Below, piece after piece: positions 31,071 to 46,028 of a stretch of 64,000 nt of DNA (positions are counted from its first letter, which is position 1; each line of letters starts with the position of its first letter). This DNA comes from Xanthomarina maritima. Lineage in GTDB: Bacteria; Bacteroidota; Bacteroidia; Flavobacteriales; Flavobacteriaceae. Location of the stretch: NCBI RefSeq assembly GCF_008084905.1, contig NZ_VSFC01000043.1, positions 1-64,000 on the forward strand, written 5' to 3'. The translations under genes were made by a program, and so were the position numbers. Below the pieces are notes generated by a model. That model did no database searches. It was given only the letters and a program-made list of their open reading frames with translations, and was not told the origin of the DNA.

Positions 31071-31140
31071 AAAATTCGATTAAATGTATTAAAAATTCGA
31101 TAAAAAACAATAAAATTGATTTTTATTCGATGAAATACAT
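31071..31140 (-). promoter_or_regulatory. Array of three TTTnATCGAAT repeats (candidate LytTR operator)
   Basis: ATTCGAT occurs on the plus strand at 31074, 31095 and 31125, steps of 21 and 30 bp. Read toward the Fer4_19 gene the sites are TTTCATCGAAT, TTTTATCGAAT and TTTAATCGAAT. The outermost contains GTATTTCATCGA, shared exactly with the array at 41090-41152. Spacing of 21 bp is what LytTR dimers need on direct repeats. Confidence 0.6.
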
Positions 31141-41089: not shown

Positions 41090-41153
41090 GTATTTCATCG
41101 ATTATTTGTGATATTTCACCTTCAAATGTTAAAAAAAAGCGTATTTCATCGAA
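41090..41153 (+). promoter_or_regulatory. Array of three TATTTCATCGA-type repeats (candidate LytTR operator)
   Basis: GTATTTCATCGA occurs exactly at 41090-41101 and 41141-41152, and a diverged copy (TATTTCACC) starts at 41112. Steps are 21 and 30 bp, as in the array at 31071-31140. The sites point to the promoter at 41172-41199. Confidence 0.6.
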
Positions 41154-41171
41154 AATAATAGCTTTTAAACG

Positions 41172-41199
41172 TTGAAATTCAAAATTAATTTTACATTTG
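41172..41199 (+). promoter_or_regulatory. Promoter of the second small RNA candidate
   Basis: TTG (41172-41174) and TACATTTG (41192-41199) with 17 bp between fit the Bacteroidota consensus. The nearest repeat ends 19 bp upstream. No plus-strand gene starts before 41975. Confidence 0.6.
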
Positions 41200-41204
41200 A
41201 AGTG

Positions 41205-41346
41205 TACTAAAATATTACTTTTTAGTTCAATGGATTAATTAATTAATATTTGCATTATGTTGTTGATACTAGAGACCCTAAATCTGACTACATAATAAAG
41301 ATGCAAATTAAATTAAACCGAGGTTGAGGGACCTCGGTTTTTTTTG
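41205..41346 (+). ncRNA. Candidate regulated small RNA, antisense to the alkB-like 3' end
   Basis: About 140 nt from the predicted start to the T8 of the terminator. TTTGCAT (41249-41255) can pair with ATGCAAA (41301-41307), and TATGT (41256-41260) with ACATA (41290-41294), giving a long-range stem with one bulge. The only reading frame is a 12-codon one at 41257-41295. The last 60 bases are antisense to the end of the alkB-like gene. Confidence 0.45.
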
Positions 41347-41941
41347 TTATAAACCGAAAAGTTAAATTAATTCGTTTTCCTACTTCGTTTTTAGTTTTTG
41401 GTATTTGGTGTAACCAATAGTGTTGCATTTCTCCTTTCATTATTAATAAACTTCCATGTTCTAATTCCAATTTATGATTTTCGGATTTAAGTGTTCGATG
41501 TTTATATTTAAAACTTCGTCTAGCTCCAAAACTTACAGAGGTAATTACTGGATTAACACCCAATTCCTTTTCATTGTCTGCATGCCATCCGTTGCTATCA
41601 TTACCATCTCTATATAAATTTAAAAGAACAGAATTAAACTTGTGTTTTGTTGCTACCTCTACTTGCTCTTTAATTTTTAGTAGCAATTTGTTAAAAGGTT
41701 GAGGATTCATAGTAATTCCAGAATAGGTATAAGGTGTATTACTTTCAGCGTATAACGCAGTTAACCTTGGTTGTTTATGTGCTTTTCCAAAAAGAGTAAT
41801 ATTATCTTGTTGCCATAAAATGTCTTTTAATAAACTTTCAAAAATTATATTAGCTTCAGTTTGGCTATAAAATTGAGATATATAAATAAGTTCTGCTTGA
41901 GGCAAATTAAATTTGGTTTTTTCTGAAGGAAACAAATTCAT
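41288..41941 (-). CDS. AlkB-like 2-oxoglutarate/Fe(II) dioxygenase
   Basis: 217 residues from ATG 41941 (MNLFPSEKTKFNLP), preferred to ATG 41968, which would leave 6 bp to the divergent gene. Iron ligands are His/Asp in WHADNEKELG and the later His in MQHYWLHQIPK; the 2OG-binding Arg residues are in GKRINLTFR. The family repairs alkylated nucleic acids. The typical family end (INLTFRFI) is followed by 20 extra residues encoded by a terminator hairpin on the opposite strand. Confidence 0.88.
   Translation of the reverse strand: MNLFPSEKTKFNLPQAELIYISQFYSQTEANIIFESLLKDILWQQDNITLFGKAHKQPRLTALYAESNTPYTYSGITMNPQPFNKLLLKIKEQVEVATKHKFNSVLLNLYRDGNDSNGWHADNEKELGVNPVITSVSFGARRSFKYKHRTLKSENHKLELEHGSLLIMKGEMQHYWLHQIPKTKNEVGKRINLTFRFITKKTEVPQPRFNLICIFIM
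41315..41346 (+). terminator. Intrinsic terminator inside the alkB-like 3' end
   Basis: AAACCGAGGT, TGAGGG loop, ACCTCGGTTT (10 bp) followed by T8 on the plus strand. On the minus strand the stem is translated as part of the dioxygenase tail. Confidence 0.88.
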
Positions 41942-41974
41942 CAGGTATTTTTTTTCTAAATTAGCCATAACTCT

Positions 41975-42689: not shown

Positions 42690-44894
42690 TCATTTATTTA
42701 GAATATTATATATTGAGATAATTAAGTCTTCGGGTTTATAAGGCTTTGGAATATAGTCATCCATGCCAGCAGCTAAACATTTGTCAATTTCAGATTTAAT
42801 AATGTTAGCTGTCATTGCCAAAATAGGTATTCTTTTTTCATTGTTTTCAAGTTCTCTAATTATTTCTGTTGCATCAATCCCATTCATAATTGGCATGTGC
42901 ATATCCATTAAAATAATATCAAAAGAATGTTGCTTGAATAAATCTATGGCTTCTTGACCGTTAGTAGCTACTTGTAATGTTACATTTTTTAAATAGTAAT
43001 TCAAATCGTCTTTTACGACCATAATATTAAATTCGTCATCATCAACAATAAGAATGTTTAAATCTTTTATAGTTTCTTTGATGTGCTCTAAATTGGTTTG
43101 CTGATAATTCTTATTGATTATTTTTTTTGATAATTCTGTTTGCATTGGTAATTGAAAATAGAATGTACTTCCTTTGTCAACTACACTTTCTGCCCATATT
43201 TTACCATTCTGTAATTCAATTAATTTTTTAGAAATGCTTAACCCTAAACCTGTGCCACCATAAATTTGTGATCGTGACCGTTCACCTTGTTCAAAATTTT
43301 TAAAAATAGTATTTATTTTATCTGGTTCTACACCCATTCCTGTATCGGATATCTCAAATTGAATGGCATTATCTACTTGACATAATTTAATTGTAATGTT
43401 TCCTGAATGTGTGAATTTTATGGCGTTACCAACCAAATTGATTAGAATTTGTGTTAATCGTTGAGCATCTCCAATTATCTGTTCTGGAAAATTTTCTTCA
43501 ATATTAGTTTTGAGTATTAACTCTTTTTCTTCCGCTTTATATTTGAGCATTTGTACAATGTCTTTTACAACCTGTATAGGATTAAAAATCTCCTGCTTAA
43601 TTTCTAGTTTACCAGAATCTATCTTTGATAAATCCAAAATATCATTCAACAAAACCAATAAATTATCAGAACTAGTTTTCATAGCCTCCAGATAGGGACT
43701 TTGATTACTGTAATGCCTGTTTCTTAATAGCGTATTAGTCATCCCTGAAATGGCGTGCATGGGAGTTCTAATTTCATGACTCATATTAGCCAAAAATTGT
43801 TCTTTGTGCTTTTCAGATTGTTCAGCTCTAGCTTTTTCTTGTTGTATGATTACATTTTGTTTTCTAATAAACTTTAAACGATTAAAAATATACAGAATGC
43901 CTGAAAACAAGATAAATAAGGCAAATACATTAATCCAAATTACAATTCGTTGATTAGTGATCCTTTCGGAAGTAAGTTGTTCTTGCAATTTTATTTTATC
44001 TTCAAGTATTTCATTGTTAATTTTTACCAGTTCCATACCTGATTTAAAAGAACCAGATTTTATTGAAATTTCTTCAAACTTCAAAGTGTGTTTCATGGCA
44101 TTCTCATAATCTTTAAGTGCCAAATAAATTTCTTTTAATTGAACATGTGCGTTTGACTGTGTTTGTTTTATATTATTTAATTCTGCAATTTTTAGACCTT
44201 TTTGTGTGTATGCTAAAGCGCTATCATATTGTTTAACTGTAAAATAGGCAGTACCAATATTAATACTCCTAAACGCTTTTTCACTAACTGTAGGACCTGG
44301 TTTACTTAATTTTATATGTTTTAGTGCTTCTTTGTAGTTGTTATCTTCATTATTTAGTAAATAATAAAGGTAATGGGCTCTAGAAATTAATAAATCAATA
44401 TCTTTTGTTTTTGCTACTTTCATTAATGAATCTGCAATATCATGGGCTTCTTTTTCTTTGCCTAATAGATGTGAATAGAATGCAATGGAGCTTTTTGATT
44501 CAAAAACTAAATCATTTAAATTTTGATCATTTGCTTTTTCAATGGCCTTATTAAGATAGTTTATGCTTTTTTCATATTGTACTAATGCACTAAATAACCA
44601 ACCCATTCTCTTGTAAAAATGAGGGGCAATTTTTATAGCTGAATCATTGGTTTTATTAGCTAATAGTTGTTCTTCTAATACAATACTATTTATGTATGCT
44701 TGGTTGTAATCAACTTGGTTAAGATTAGCTAAAAATATTTGATACATTATTGAAATTTCAGAACTTTTATCTCCACTTTTCTTGACAGTTACTAATGCAG
44801 ATTGTAAACTGTCTATTATATGGTTTTGGCTTGTGGGTTGTGAATAACAAGACAAGTGAATCATTAAACTTATTATTATGCAGGTAGATTTCAT
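42690..44894 (-). CDS. TPR hybrid sensor histidine kinase
   Basis: 734 residues: signal peptide, about six TPR-like repeats in the periplasmic part (about 60-300), one membrane helix (about 322-342), a coiled coil, HisKA with His373 (NMSHEIRTPMHAIS), HATPase (ILINLVGNAIKFTHSG and GGTGLGLSISKKL), and a C-terminal receiver with Asp664 (LMDMHMPIMNG). It should autophosphorylate and pass phosphate to its receiver. The start overlaps the LytTR gene stop by one base. The ligand is unknown; TPR input suggests a protein or peptide. Confidence 0.94.
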   Translation of the reverse strand: MKSTCIIISLMIHLSCYSQPTSQNHIIDSLQSALVTVKKSGDKSSEISIMYQIFLANLNQVDYNQAYINSIVLEEQLLANKTNDSAIKIAPHFYKRMGWLFSALVQYEKSINYLNKAIEKANDQNLNDLVFESKSSIAFYSHLLGKEKEAHDIADSLMKVAKTKDIDLLISRAHYLYYLLNNEDNNYKEALKHIKLSKPGPTVSEKAFRSINIGTAYFTVKQYDSALAYTQKGLKIAELNNIKQTQSNAHVQLKEIYLALKDYENAMKHTLKFEEISIKSGSFKSGMELVKINNEILEDKIKLQEQLTSERITNQRIVIWINVFALFILFSGILYIFNRLKFIRKQNVIIQQEKARAEQSEKHKEQFLANMSHEIRTPMHAISGMTNTLLRNRHYSNQSPYLEAMKTSSDNLLVLLNDILDLSKIDSGKLEIKQEIFNPIQVVKDIVQMLKYKAEEKELILKTNIEENFPEQIIGDAQRLTQILINLVGNAIKFTHSGNITIKLCQVDNAIQFEISDTGMGVEPDKINTIFKNFEQGERSRSQIYGGTGLGLSISKKLIELQNGKIWAESVVDKGSTFYFQLPMQTELSKKIINKNYQQTNLEHIKETIKDLNILIVDDDEFNIMVVKDDLNYYLKNVTLQVATNGQEAIDLFKQHSFDIILMDMHMPIMNGIDATEIIRELENNEKRIPILAMTANIIKSEIDKCLAAGMDDYIPKPYKPEDLIISIYNILNK

Positions 44895-45670
44895 TAATGA
44901 TTGCTTTTAATTAACCAGCCTTGAAAAGCTTCTTTTTTACGTCTTGAAATAGGAATTTTCATCCCATTAGAAAGTAAAATGTTAAAACTATTAGTTAACT
45001 CTACAATATGATTTTTACTTATTAAATGAGACTTATGGCATCTAAAAAAACCTTTGTTCGATAATAAATCTTCTAAATCACTTAAGGTTTTAGAAACCAG
45101 TTCTTTTCTGTTTCCAGTTAGATAAATGTTGCTGTAATTTCTATCACCTTCAATTGAAATAATATCTTTTAATACTAAATGTAAATCGCCTTGTTGCGTT
45201 TTTAAAGATAATACTTGGTCTGATATGTTTTTGGTTTTAATGTTGTTTAATGCAATGTCAACTTTATAACTAGAACCAATGGCATTATAATTGTTTTTAA
45301 ACCTTTTTATAGCATTTTTTAATTCCTCTAAATCAAAAGGTTTTAACAAATAATCTAAAGCATTAAACCTAATGGCTTTAATTGCATAGTGTTTATAAGA
45401 GGTAATAAAAATGGTTTTAAAATTTATGGATGCCAGTCGTGACAGCATTTCAAATCCAGTCATGTCTGTCATTTCTACATCAAGAAACACCAAATCAGGT
45501 TTTAAAACTATAATTTTTTCAATACCTTCTTTTCCATCATTACCTAAACCAACAATATTAATTTCTGGGAAATATTGGTTAAGTTTGTCCTTTAATAACT
45601 CTTGTATAAATGGATCGTCGTCGACAATAACACATGTTATAGTATTGGATGTAGATTTTAAATTATTCAA
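44894..45670 (-). CDS. LytTR-family response regulator
   Basis: 258 residues. Receiver domain with Asp64 (LVFLDVEMTDMTG) and the switch Thr/Lys (FITSYKHY and LLKPF), then a LytTR DNA-binding domain (about 150-250: VLKDIISIEGDRNYSNIYL, GFFRCHKSHLISKNHI, PISRRKKEAF). LytTR proteins bind direct repeats about 21 bp apart. The gene overlaps the Hpt gene by 8 bases and the kinase by one, so the three are one phosphorelay unit. Arrays at 31071 and 41090 are possible targets. Confidence 0.94.
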   Translation of the reverse strand: MNNLKSTSNTITCVIVDDDPFIQELLKDKLNQYFPEINIVGLGNDGKEGIEKIIVLKPDLVFLDVEMTDMTGFEMLSRLASINFKTIFITSYKHYAIKAIRFNALDYLLKPFDLEELKNAIKRFKNNYNAIGSSYKVDIALNNIKTKNISDQVLSLKTQQGDLHLVLKDIISIEGDRNYSNIYLTGNRKELVSKTLSDLEDLLSNKGFFRCHKSHLISKNHIVELTNSFNILLSNGMKIPISRRKKEAFQGWLIKSNH

Positions 45671-46028
45671 ATTGTGTTTGTATAGTTTTAGTTACTTCAG
45701 AAATAGCTCCTTCTAATTTATAAATTAAATCATTAACTAAGACGTTTAATTCGAATAACGGCATCGATTCATATTCCATTTCTAAACGTTGAATGGGGTT
45801 AACAACATCTTGAATGCCAAAAAACTGTAATTGCGGACTCATTTTATGTAGAATTTGTCGTATTTGTCTTCGGTCATTTTCTGCTAATGCATCTTTTAGT
45901 TGTTCTAATCGTTCTGGAATTAATTCTTGAAACTGTTTTAAATATTTCAACATTCTACCTGAATCGCCTCTAGAAATGGAGACTATATTTTTAAGATTTA
46001 TAAAGGTTTTGTGTCGTTCGGCATTCAT
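45663..46028 (-). CDS. Hpt phosphotransfer protein
   Basis: 121 residues, all helical. His61 in QILHKMSPQLQFFG is the phosphoacceptor; the usual HxxKG is replaced by HKMSP, a variant I associate with Bacteroidota Hpt domains. It would carry phosphate from the receiver of the hybrid kinase to the LytTR regulator. First gene of the three-gene operon. The upstream 251-bp region holds a 14-bp inverted repeat. Confidence 0.85.
   Translation of the reverse strand: MNAERHKTFINLKNIVSISRGDSGRMLKYLKQFQELIPERLEQLKDALAENDRRQIRQILHKMSPQLQFFGIQDVVNPIQRLEMEYESMPLFELNVLVNDLIYKLEGAISEVTKTIQTQFE

Follow-up and report, generated by a model that had tools for sequence, protein, structure and literature searches.

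Positions 41090 to 41346 of the window, the whole 64,000-nucleotide stretch of Xanthomarina maritima DNA that we analyzed, almost certainly hold a conserved structured RNA gene. Judged by sequence, an array of operator sites, a -7 promoter box, a predicted RNA of ~143 nt and a terminator are one conserved unit. Comparison of genomes gave us this unit, the structure of the RNA, its operator and a leader element that it shares with other genes. We favor, at a probability of about 0.55, the explanation that the product is a trans-acting small RNA (sRNA) that belongs to an envelope regulon and may pair with the mRNA of an LRR protein.

Distribution of the RNA gene

A covariance model of the RNA matched 122 of 397 genomes of the family, in 79 of 237 genera, and 119 of the 122 had a single match. 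This search had been proposed along with the original prediction, which expected the array and hairpins to be kept in related genomes, as they are. In a class-wide sample that took in a few family members and was searched with strict filters, the window's own genome alone matched, and none of the 294 others did. When 60 relatives were searched at the DNA level, 18 gave long matches with E below 1e-30; all 18 belong to the same family. The exact core pattern was present in at least 118 named records, and the titles among the 80 matches listed placed them in the Flavobacteriaceae or were those of MAGs titled Bacteroidia or Bacteroidetes. Searching all 4227 Rfam families, which presumably include 6S-Flavo and Flavo-1, gave no gathering-level match at 41090-41346 and weak sub-threshold matches alone. 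Two records (L133:1502-1965 and G350:C21:164192-164649) carry the RNA gene as tandem duplicates and are possibly one organism seen twice.

Promoter and structure of the predicted RNA

The promoter box, the RNA and its structural elements lie as follows.

41192..41199, + strand: -7 box TACATTTG, of the Bacteroidetes sigma-A type TAnnTTTG, with a predicted start at ~41204
41204..41346, + strand: predicted small RNA of ~143 nt, ending in the T-run
41206..41226, + strand: 5' hairpin P1, ACTAAAA (41206-41212) paired with TTTTAGT (41220-41226)
41230..41247, + strand: constant unpaired stretch AUGGAUUAAUUAAUUAAU, a candidate seed
41248..41308, + strand: long-range stem P2, 41248-41254 with 41302-41308, around variable inner helices
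41270..41286, + strand: inner hairpin P4, carrying CCCTAAATCT at 41276-41285
41315..41345, + strand: intrinsic terminator, stem 41315-41323/41332-41340, loop UUGAGGGA at 41324-41331, then the T-run

The sigma-A -7 box is described at positions -12 to -5 (PMC9723704). TAnnTTTG was found in 132 of 133 copies chosen by the core pattern and in 13 of 19 weak model matches. A promoter of the form TTG-N17-TACATTTG had been predicted here, and both elements are present (TTG at 41172-41174, the box at 41192-41199); the box is conserved, but the TTG is hardly so.

None of 200 shuffled versions reached the folding score of the predicted RNA (z -3.67). We judged the structure on 88 copies, made up of 85 representatives of 150 unique copies together with the window, L221 and L222. 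In these, the proposed structure had 88.0% of its cells paired, versus 31-52% when it was slid along the alignment, and 119 cells were changed on both sides, versus 39 in shuffles, with the terminator supplying much of this signal. The terminator stem was paired in 99.7% of cells, and eight of its nine pairs had changes on both sides, while its loop UUGAGGGA was nearly constant. In the window, the terminator-like site at 41315-41340 has 11 pairs and is followed by the T-run, so the terminator expected downstream of the promoter was found. The six outer pairs of P1 were paired in 98.4% of cells and varied little; the hairpin is therefore compatible with the alignment but little tested by it. 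P2 was paired in 86.5% of cells, with the innermost pair formed in 18 of the 88 copies; one copy (L226) replaces a GC pair with AU, and three others (L225, L227 and L228) use other registers. A long-range stem had been foreseen at 41249-41260/41290-41307; the one proposed here joins 41248-41254 and 41302-41308. Helix P3 was paired in 62.4% of cells, a low value due in part to its formation in other registers in some species, as seen in their folds. P4 was paired in 83.6% of cells, and its CCCTAAATCT element was present in 17 of 19 unselected copies.

The constancy of the seed, the terminator loop and the 5' arm of P2 is partly built in, because the choice of copies required the core pattern or also the loop, and it is best judged on copies that were not picked by pattern. 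All 19 copies from the first search, which were unselected, contain both GGATTAATT and TTGAGGGA. Among 20 mostly weak model matches, GGATTAATT was kept in 18, TTGAGGG[AG] in 18 of the 19 that include that region and CC.AAATC in 13.

A conserved ORF inside the RNA interval does not agree with the relatives, which carry indels there that are not multiples of three. Conservation thus supports an untranslated RNA of ~140 nt behind a regulated-looking promoter, as had been predicted, and the conserved combination of a promoter of its own and an intrinsic terminator with no conserved ORF is as expected of a trans-encoded sRNA. As a separate observation, positions 41230-41238 spell AUG-GAU-UAA, a two-codon frame that is present in 18 of the 20 model matches, which were not picked by it, and that is possibly due to chance.

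The operator array

Upstream of the -7 box, we distinguished four operator sites and one further box.

41090..41101, + strand: operator site 1, GTATTTCATCGA (TGYATTTCATCGAT in relatives), conserved block -55..-42 in 131 aligned copies
41113..41120, + strand: operator site 2, degenerate ATTTCACC, site 1 + 21 bp, TTTYRTC block -30..-24
41127..41133, + strand: TGTTAAA box, ending 7 bp ahead of site 3
41141..41152, + strand: operator site 3, GTATTTCATCGA, site 2 + 30 bp
41163..41171, + strand: operator site 4, degenerate TTTTAAACG, site 3 + 20 bp, TTTWRWCG block +20..+27

The TTT of sites 1, 2 and 3 falls at 41093, 41114 and 41144, so that the repeated 12-mer with a degenerate middle copy at steps of 21 and 30 bp is present as originally claimed. 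Exact copies of GTATTTCATCGA occur three times in the window, at 41090-41101 (+), 41141-41152 (+) and 31127-31138 (-), versus a mean of 0.01 in 100 shuffles, none of which reached three; the argument that three exact copies are unlikely by chance therefore held. With up to two mismatches allowed, the excess was less striking (14 versus 7.1). Across the genome, the exact 12-mer was found eight times, versus once for the reversed word, and the 9-mer TTTCATCGA by itself showed no enrichment (50 versus 83 for the reversed word). At two loci of this genome (L003 near 2074 and L005 near 2199), GTATTTCATCGA lies between palindromes resembling ACGTAA/TTACGT ahead of lipoprotein-like genes, another setting of the same 12-mer.

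Column information over 131 copies (leaving out one without a -7 box and one with three mismatches at site 3) picked out site 1, site 2 (+21), AAATGTTAAAA, site 3 (+30) and site 4 (+20), the last of which the original prediction did not describe. Every base of the TGTTAAA box was 97-100% conserved in these copies. The exact 9-mer TTTCATCGA of site 3 stood at -48/-49 from the TA of the -7 box in 92 of 132 copies, and that of site 1 at -99/-100 in 47 of 132. No conserved -33 hexamer was detected in the 131 aligned copies, and site 4 sits where this element is expected, which suggests that the promoter may depend on an activator.

A related array lies elsewhere in the window, ahead of the gene for a small 4Fe-4S protein.

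31076..31138, - strand: related array of three sites (31127-31138, 31097-31108 and 31076-31087) at steps of 30 and 21, without TGTTAAA
30772..31005, - strand: 77-aa Fer4_19 (divergent 4Fe-4S mono-cluster) protein, with CCCCAAAT in its leader

The site at 31127-31138 is the third exact 12-mer of the window, and the two further sites read ATCGA. Of 12 such loci, 8 could be aligned; among the 7 relatives in this alignment, the first site TTTCATCGA was kept in L300, L302 and L303 and had one mismatch in L301.

A regulon sharing the operator

The composite TGTTAAA-N6-TGYATTTCATCGA, with no more than one mismatch, was present in 132 of 249 family genomes, compared to one for a reversed control. The TGTTAAA box of the array is part of this composite. 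The operator was found in 80 of 83 RNA-bearing genomes versus 52 of 166 without a detected RNA; the first of these counts is partly circular because the operator of the RNA itself is included. We examined six sites in this genome, 20 operator loci from others and 20 further regions. By inspection, the genes that recur behind the operator encode a microprotein of 29-42 aa, an LRR protein and further proteins that look exported, a description that reflects our reading of their N termini. We hold it very likely that the RNA gene and this regulon have the operator in common, and the kinds of genes that share it place the RNA in what appears to be an envelope or surface regulon of the Flavobacteriaceae.

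The microprotein gene lies between CoA-transferase and ABC ATPase genes in 12 of 14 loci viewed by eye, the exceptions being L190 and L199. In this genome, it is at G000:C27 ~167635-167763 (L212:1136-1264) behind an operator with one mismatch, and its product MNFASNLPEQPTSYESKLYKSLQSTGRFIKSLLYLTKKIFML has no Pfam match. The microprotein leader contains repeated CCCCAAATCTAYC-like stretches in several genomes. In three genomes without a detected RNA (L195, L197 and L200), the apparent 3' end of the microprotein transcript consists of CCCCAAATCTG with a hairpin resembling a terminator, and it may be analogous to the 3' half of the RNA. The LRR protein has ~274 aa and Pfam LRR matches. In this genome, its gene occupies 994-1797 of contig C24, where the operator has four mismatches and has lost TGTTAAA; the leader contains ATTAATCCC. 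An Rfam search over 16 regulon loci returned two tRNAs and one S16 leader.

The element CCC(C/U)AAA was present in 40 of 60 distinct leaders driven by the operator, excluding those of the RNA, versus one in antisense and one upstream; these counts are not independent, because the motif was chosen after some leaders had been seen and many of the leaders are orthologues. The RNA displays the same element as CCCTAAATCT in P4. Over 910 kb around 118 copies of the RNA gene, all 94 occurrences of CCC[CT]AAATCTA were inside the RNA (the tandem copy in L133 being counted). Leaders with CCC(C/U)AAA were also found in genomes without a detected RNA.

How the RNA might act

The GGAUUAAUU part of the unpaired stretch is complementary to AAUUAAUCC, which lies close to where the LRR mRNA is predicted to start. 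We compared LRR leaders at the best 30 loci of 74 genomes with matches. Of 29 RNA-bearing genomes, 19 have TTAATCC in this leader and 10 lack it; the background frequency is 0.0032 per 30 nt. Counting by script yielded 20 of 29, one of which (L269) falls in operator site 4 and was removed. In genomes without a detected RNA, LRR homologues had the site in one of 30 rows (the L320 row starts at the wrong ORF), a confounded contrast that proves little because these homologues are mostly distant and have no operator. L256, the sole close LRR homologue from a genome without a detected RNA, carries the mismatched form AATTAATACC of the site. The duplex with the seed piece scored -9.2 kcal/mol in all four LRR leaders scored, a weak signal compared with mononucleotide shuffles (z -1.2 to -1.4). 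For the seed piece and 11 microprotein leaders, z ranged from -1.9 to 1.6, with eight above 0.0, and duplexes of the whole RNA with 15 leaders showed no signal (z -1.1 to 1.7). Overall, we consider it somewhat less than an even chance that the RNA acts on the LRR mRNA through pairing.

These observations fit a model in which an activator would bind the composite operator, made up of TGTTAAA, TTTCATCGA and, 20 bp farther on, a degenerate repeat, with an extra pair of sites upstream in the array studied here. Bound there, it would switch on the ~143-nt RNA at a -7 box that has no conserved -33 element. The RNA would most likely work in trans on co-regulated mRNAs: its unpaired GGAUUAAUU may pair with AAUUAAUCC, about 15-25 nt 5' of the LRR AUG, and the terminator loop UUGAGGGA may touch the CCC of the leader element. 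Operator and pairing together would form a feed-forward loop. Transcription, activation, pairing and the sign of regulation are the steps of this model that we infer.

The shared leader element suggests a different role. CsrB acts as a decoy for CsrA, and the RNA might similarly show CCCUAAAUCU in P4 and titrate a factor, either an RNA-binding protein or a different RNA, whose targets are leaders with CCC(C/U)AAA. The frequency of the element in operator-driven leaders, its confinement to the RNA around the RNA gene and its retention in leaders of genomes without a detected RNA would all agree with such a decoy, and like CsrB and RsmZ, the RNA bears a motif of regulated mRNA leaders. However, it carries one copy where those RNAs have many, and the motif is CCCYAAAUCU here and GGA there. 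The element is also missing in 7 of the 20 weak model matches, most of which keep the seed and the loop, and titration does not explain why the unpaired stretch and the terminator loop are constant. We put the chance that the RNA is a decoy at roughly one in four.

The two roles could also be combined, a proposal that we regard as still a little less probable than the decoy. The regulon would then have two layers, with one DNA operator and with leaders in which CCC(C/U)AAAU(CUA) precedes the start codon, and the sRNA would display that element. Equally speculative is the further part of this proposal, that the sRNA also holds possible anti-elements in GGAUUAAUU and in the GAGGGA terminator loop. 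If true, a switch between self-bound and leader-bound sRNA would tune translation of the whole regulon, the microprotein included.

Relation to known sRNAs

Like trans-encoded base-pairing sRNAs generally, this RNA has its own promoter, an intrinsic terminator, a constant unpaired stretch and a candidate target in the same regulon; unlike them, it also bears the leader element of co-regulated mRNAs. When we ran a second RNA model against 41 genomes of a large genus of the same family, which we take to be Flavobacterium, nothing was detected at E <= 0.001, and the best match (E 0.0038) resembled a gene end with a terminator.

The closest described case is Rfp18 of Flavobacterium psychrophilum, an sRNA reported to be required for normal protease mRNA levels (PMC9723704). 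As described there, Rfp18 is likewise an intergenic flavobacterial sRNA with a strong predicted structure and cross-species conservation, and it is similarly predicted to act by a stem-loop, the third, on mRNAs of exported proteins (PMC9723704). This likeness would allow the RNA to be a divergent homologue of Rfp18, which we think very unlikely: the second model found nothing in those 41 genomes. Rfp18 is called widely conserved in its genus, and the description compared here mentions no operator (PMC9723704). The sRNA candidates of Flavobacterium columnare ATCC 49512 are likewise flavobacterial and without an Rfam match, to go by their description alone (PMC5395568).

Neighboring genes and the regulator

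An alkB-like ORF lies 3' of the RNA in 16 of 18 relatives, and a hydrolase gene lies 5' in 14 of 18. This placement would suit a nonfunctional RNA in a stretch that serves as regulatory DNA of the divergent hydrolase gene or as a shared terminator for the convergent alkB-like gene. However, the RNA and array persist without the adjoining hydrolase gene (L021 and L023) or alkB-like ORF (L015 and L020), the terminator stem changes in pairs around a constant loop, and the TAnnTTTG box points toward the RNA. We therefore judge this reading of the stretch very unlikely, slightly more so than homology to Rfp18.

The RNA had been described as antisense to the 3' end of the alkB-like gene. An overlap does exist here, but in none of the 16 relatives with the ORF does it reach into the RNA beyond the terminator end; in 16 of 18 relatives, the stop codon is at the terminator end or just past it, and among 17 genomes with the ORF that were compared, this one alone has it reaching into the RNA. 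A conserved overlap with the gene, as in cis-antisense RNAs, was thus not found in these relatives, and an antisense role toward alkB in general was rejected, with the overlap seen in one genome and with L015 and L020 keeping the RNA in the absence of an alkB-like ORF. In the window, the alkB-like ORF (41288-41968) crosses the terminator of the RNA, which may reflect a lost stop codon or a point of the assembly.

A LytTR response regulator (44894-45670) is encoded near the RNA gene and had been named as the regulator of the array. Across a search of 36 other genomes, of which 13 carry the RNA, its best relatives were 37% identical, and six RNA-bearing genomes of the same genus had no relative above 35%. 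The region 42690-46028, with genes for a hybrid histidine kinase, the LytTR regulator and Hpt, lies between genes that adjoin each other in these six loci, where the cluster is missing. This protein was therefore rejected as a conserved regulator, no orthologue having been found in the RNA-bearing genomes among those 36. That it binds the array while the RNA is antisense to the alkB-like mRNA is highly improbable, its proximity and the 20-21 bp steps notwithstanding, given the 37% identity of its relatives and the confinement of the alkB overlap to this genome among those compared. Steps of this size suit direct-repeat binders in general, and it is possible that some LytTR-type protein binds the array. 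LytTR/AgrA-type operators likewise lie 5' of a promoter and consist of direct repeats spaced by roughly two turns of the helix; the likeness is one of spacing, and no orthologous regulator was found for this array. A TPR histidine kinase was rejected as an autoregulator, because the operator-like site before it (L206) has three mismatches and is too weak.

Significance

To our knowledge, targets or regulators are known for few Flavobacteriaceae sRNAs. Conserved sRNAs that belong to a regulon are a known kind of system; no description of this RNA family, its operator or the shared leader element was found in the open-licence literature searched. The RNA is present in about one-third of the sampled family genomes, together with an operator, co-regulated genes and candidate pairing sites, and it therefore offers a directly testable sRNA circuit. 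It also opens a way into an envelope regulon that has no name yet and includes a microprotein without a Pfam match.
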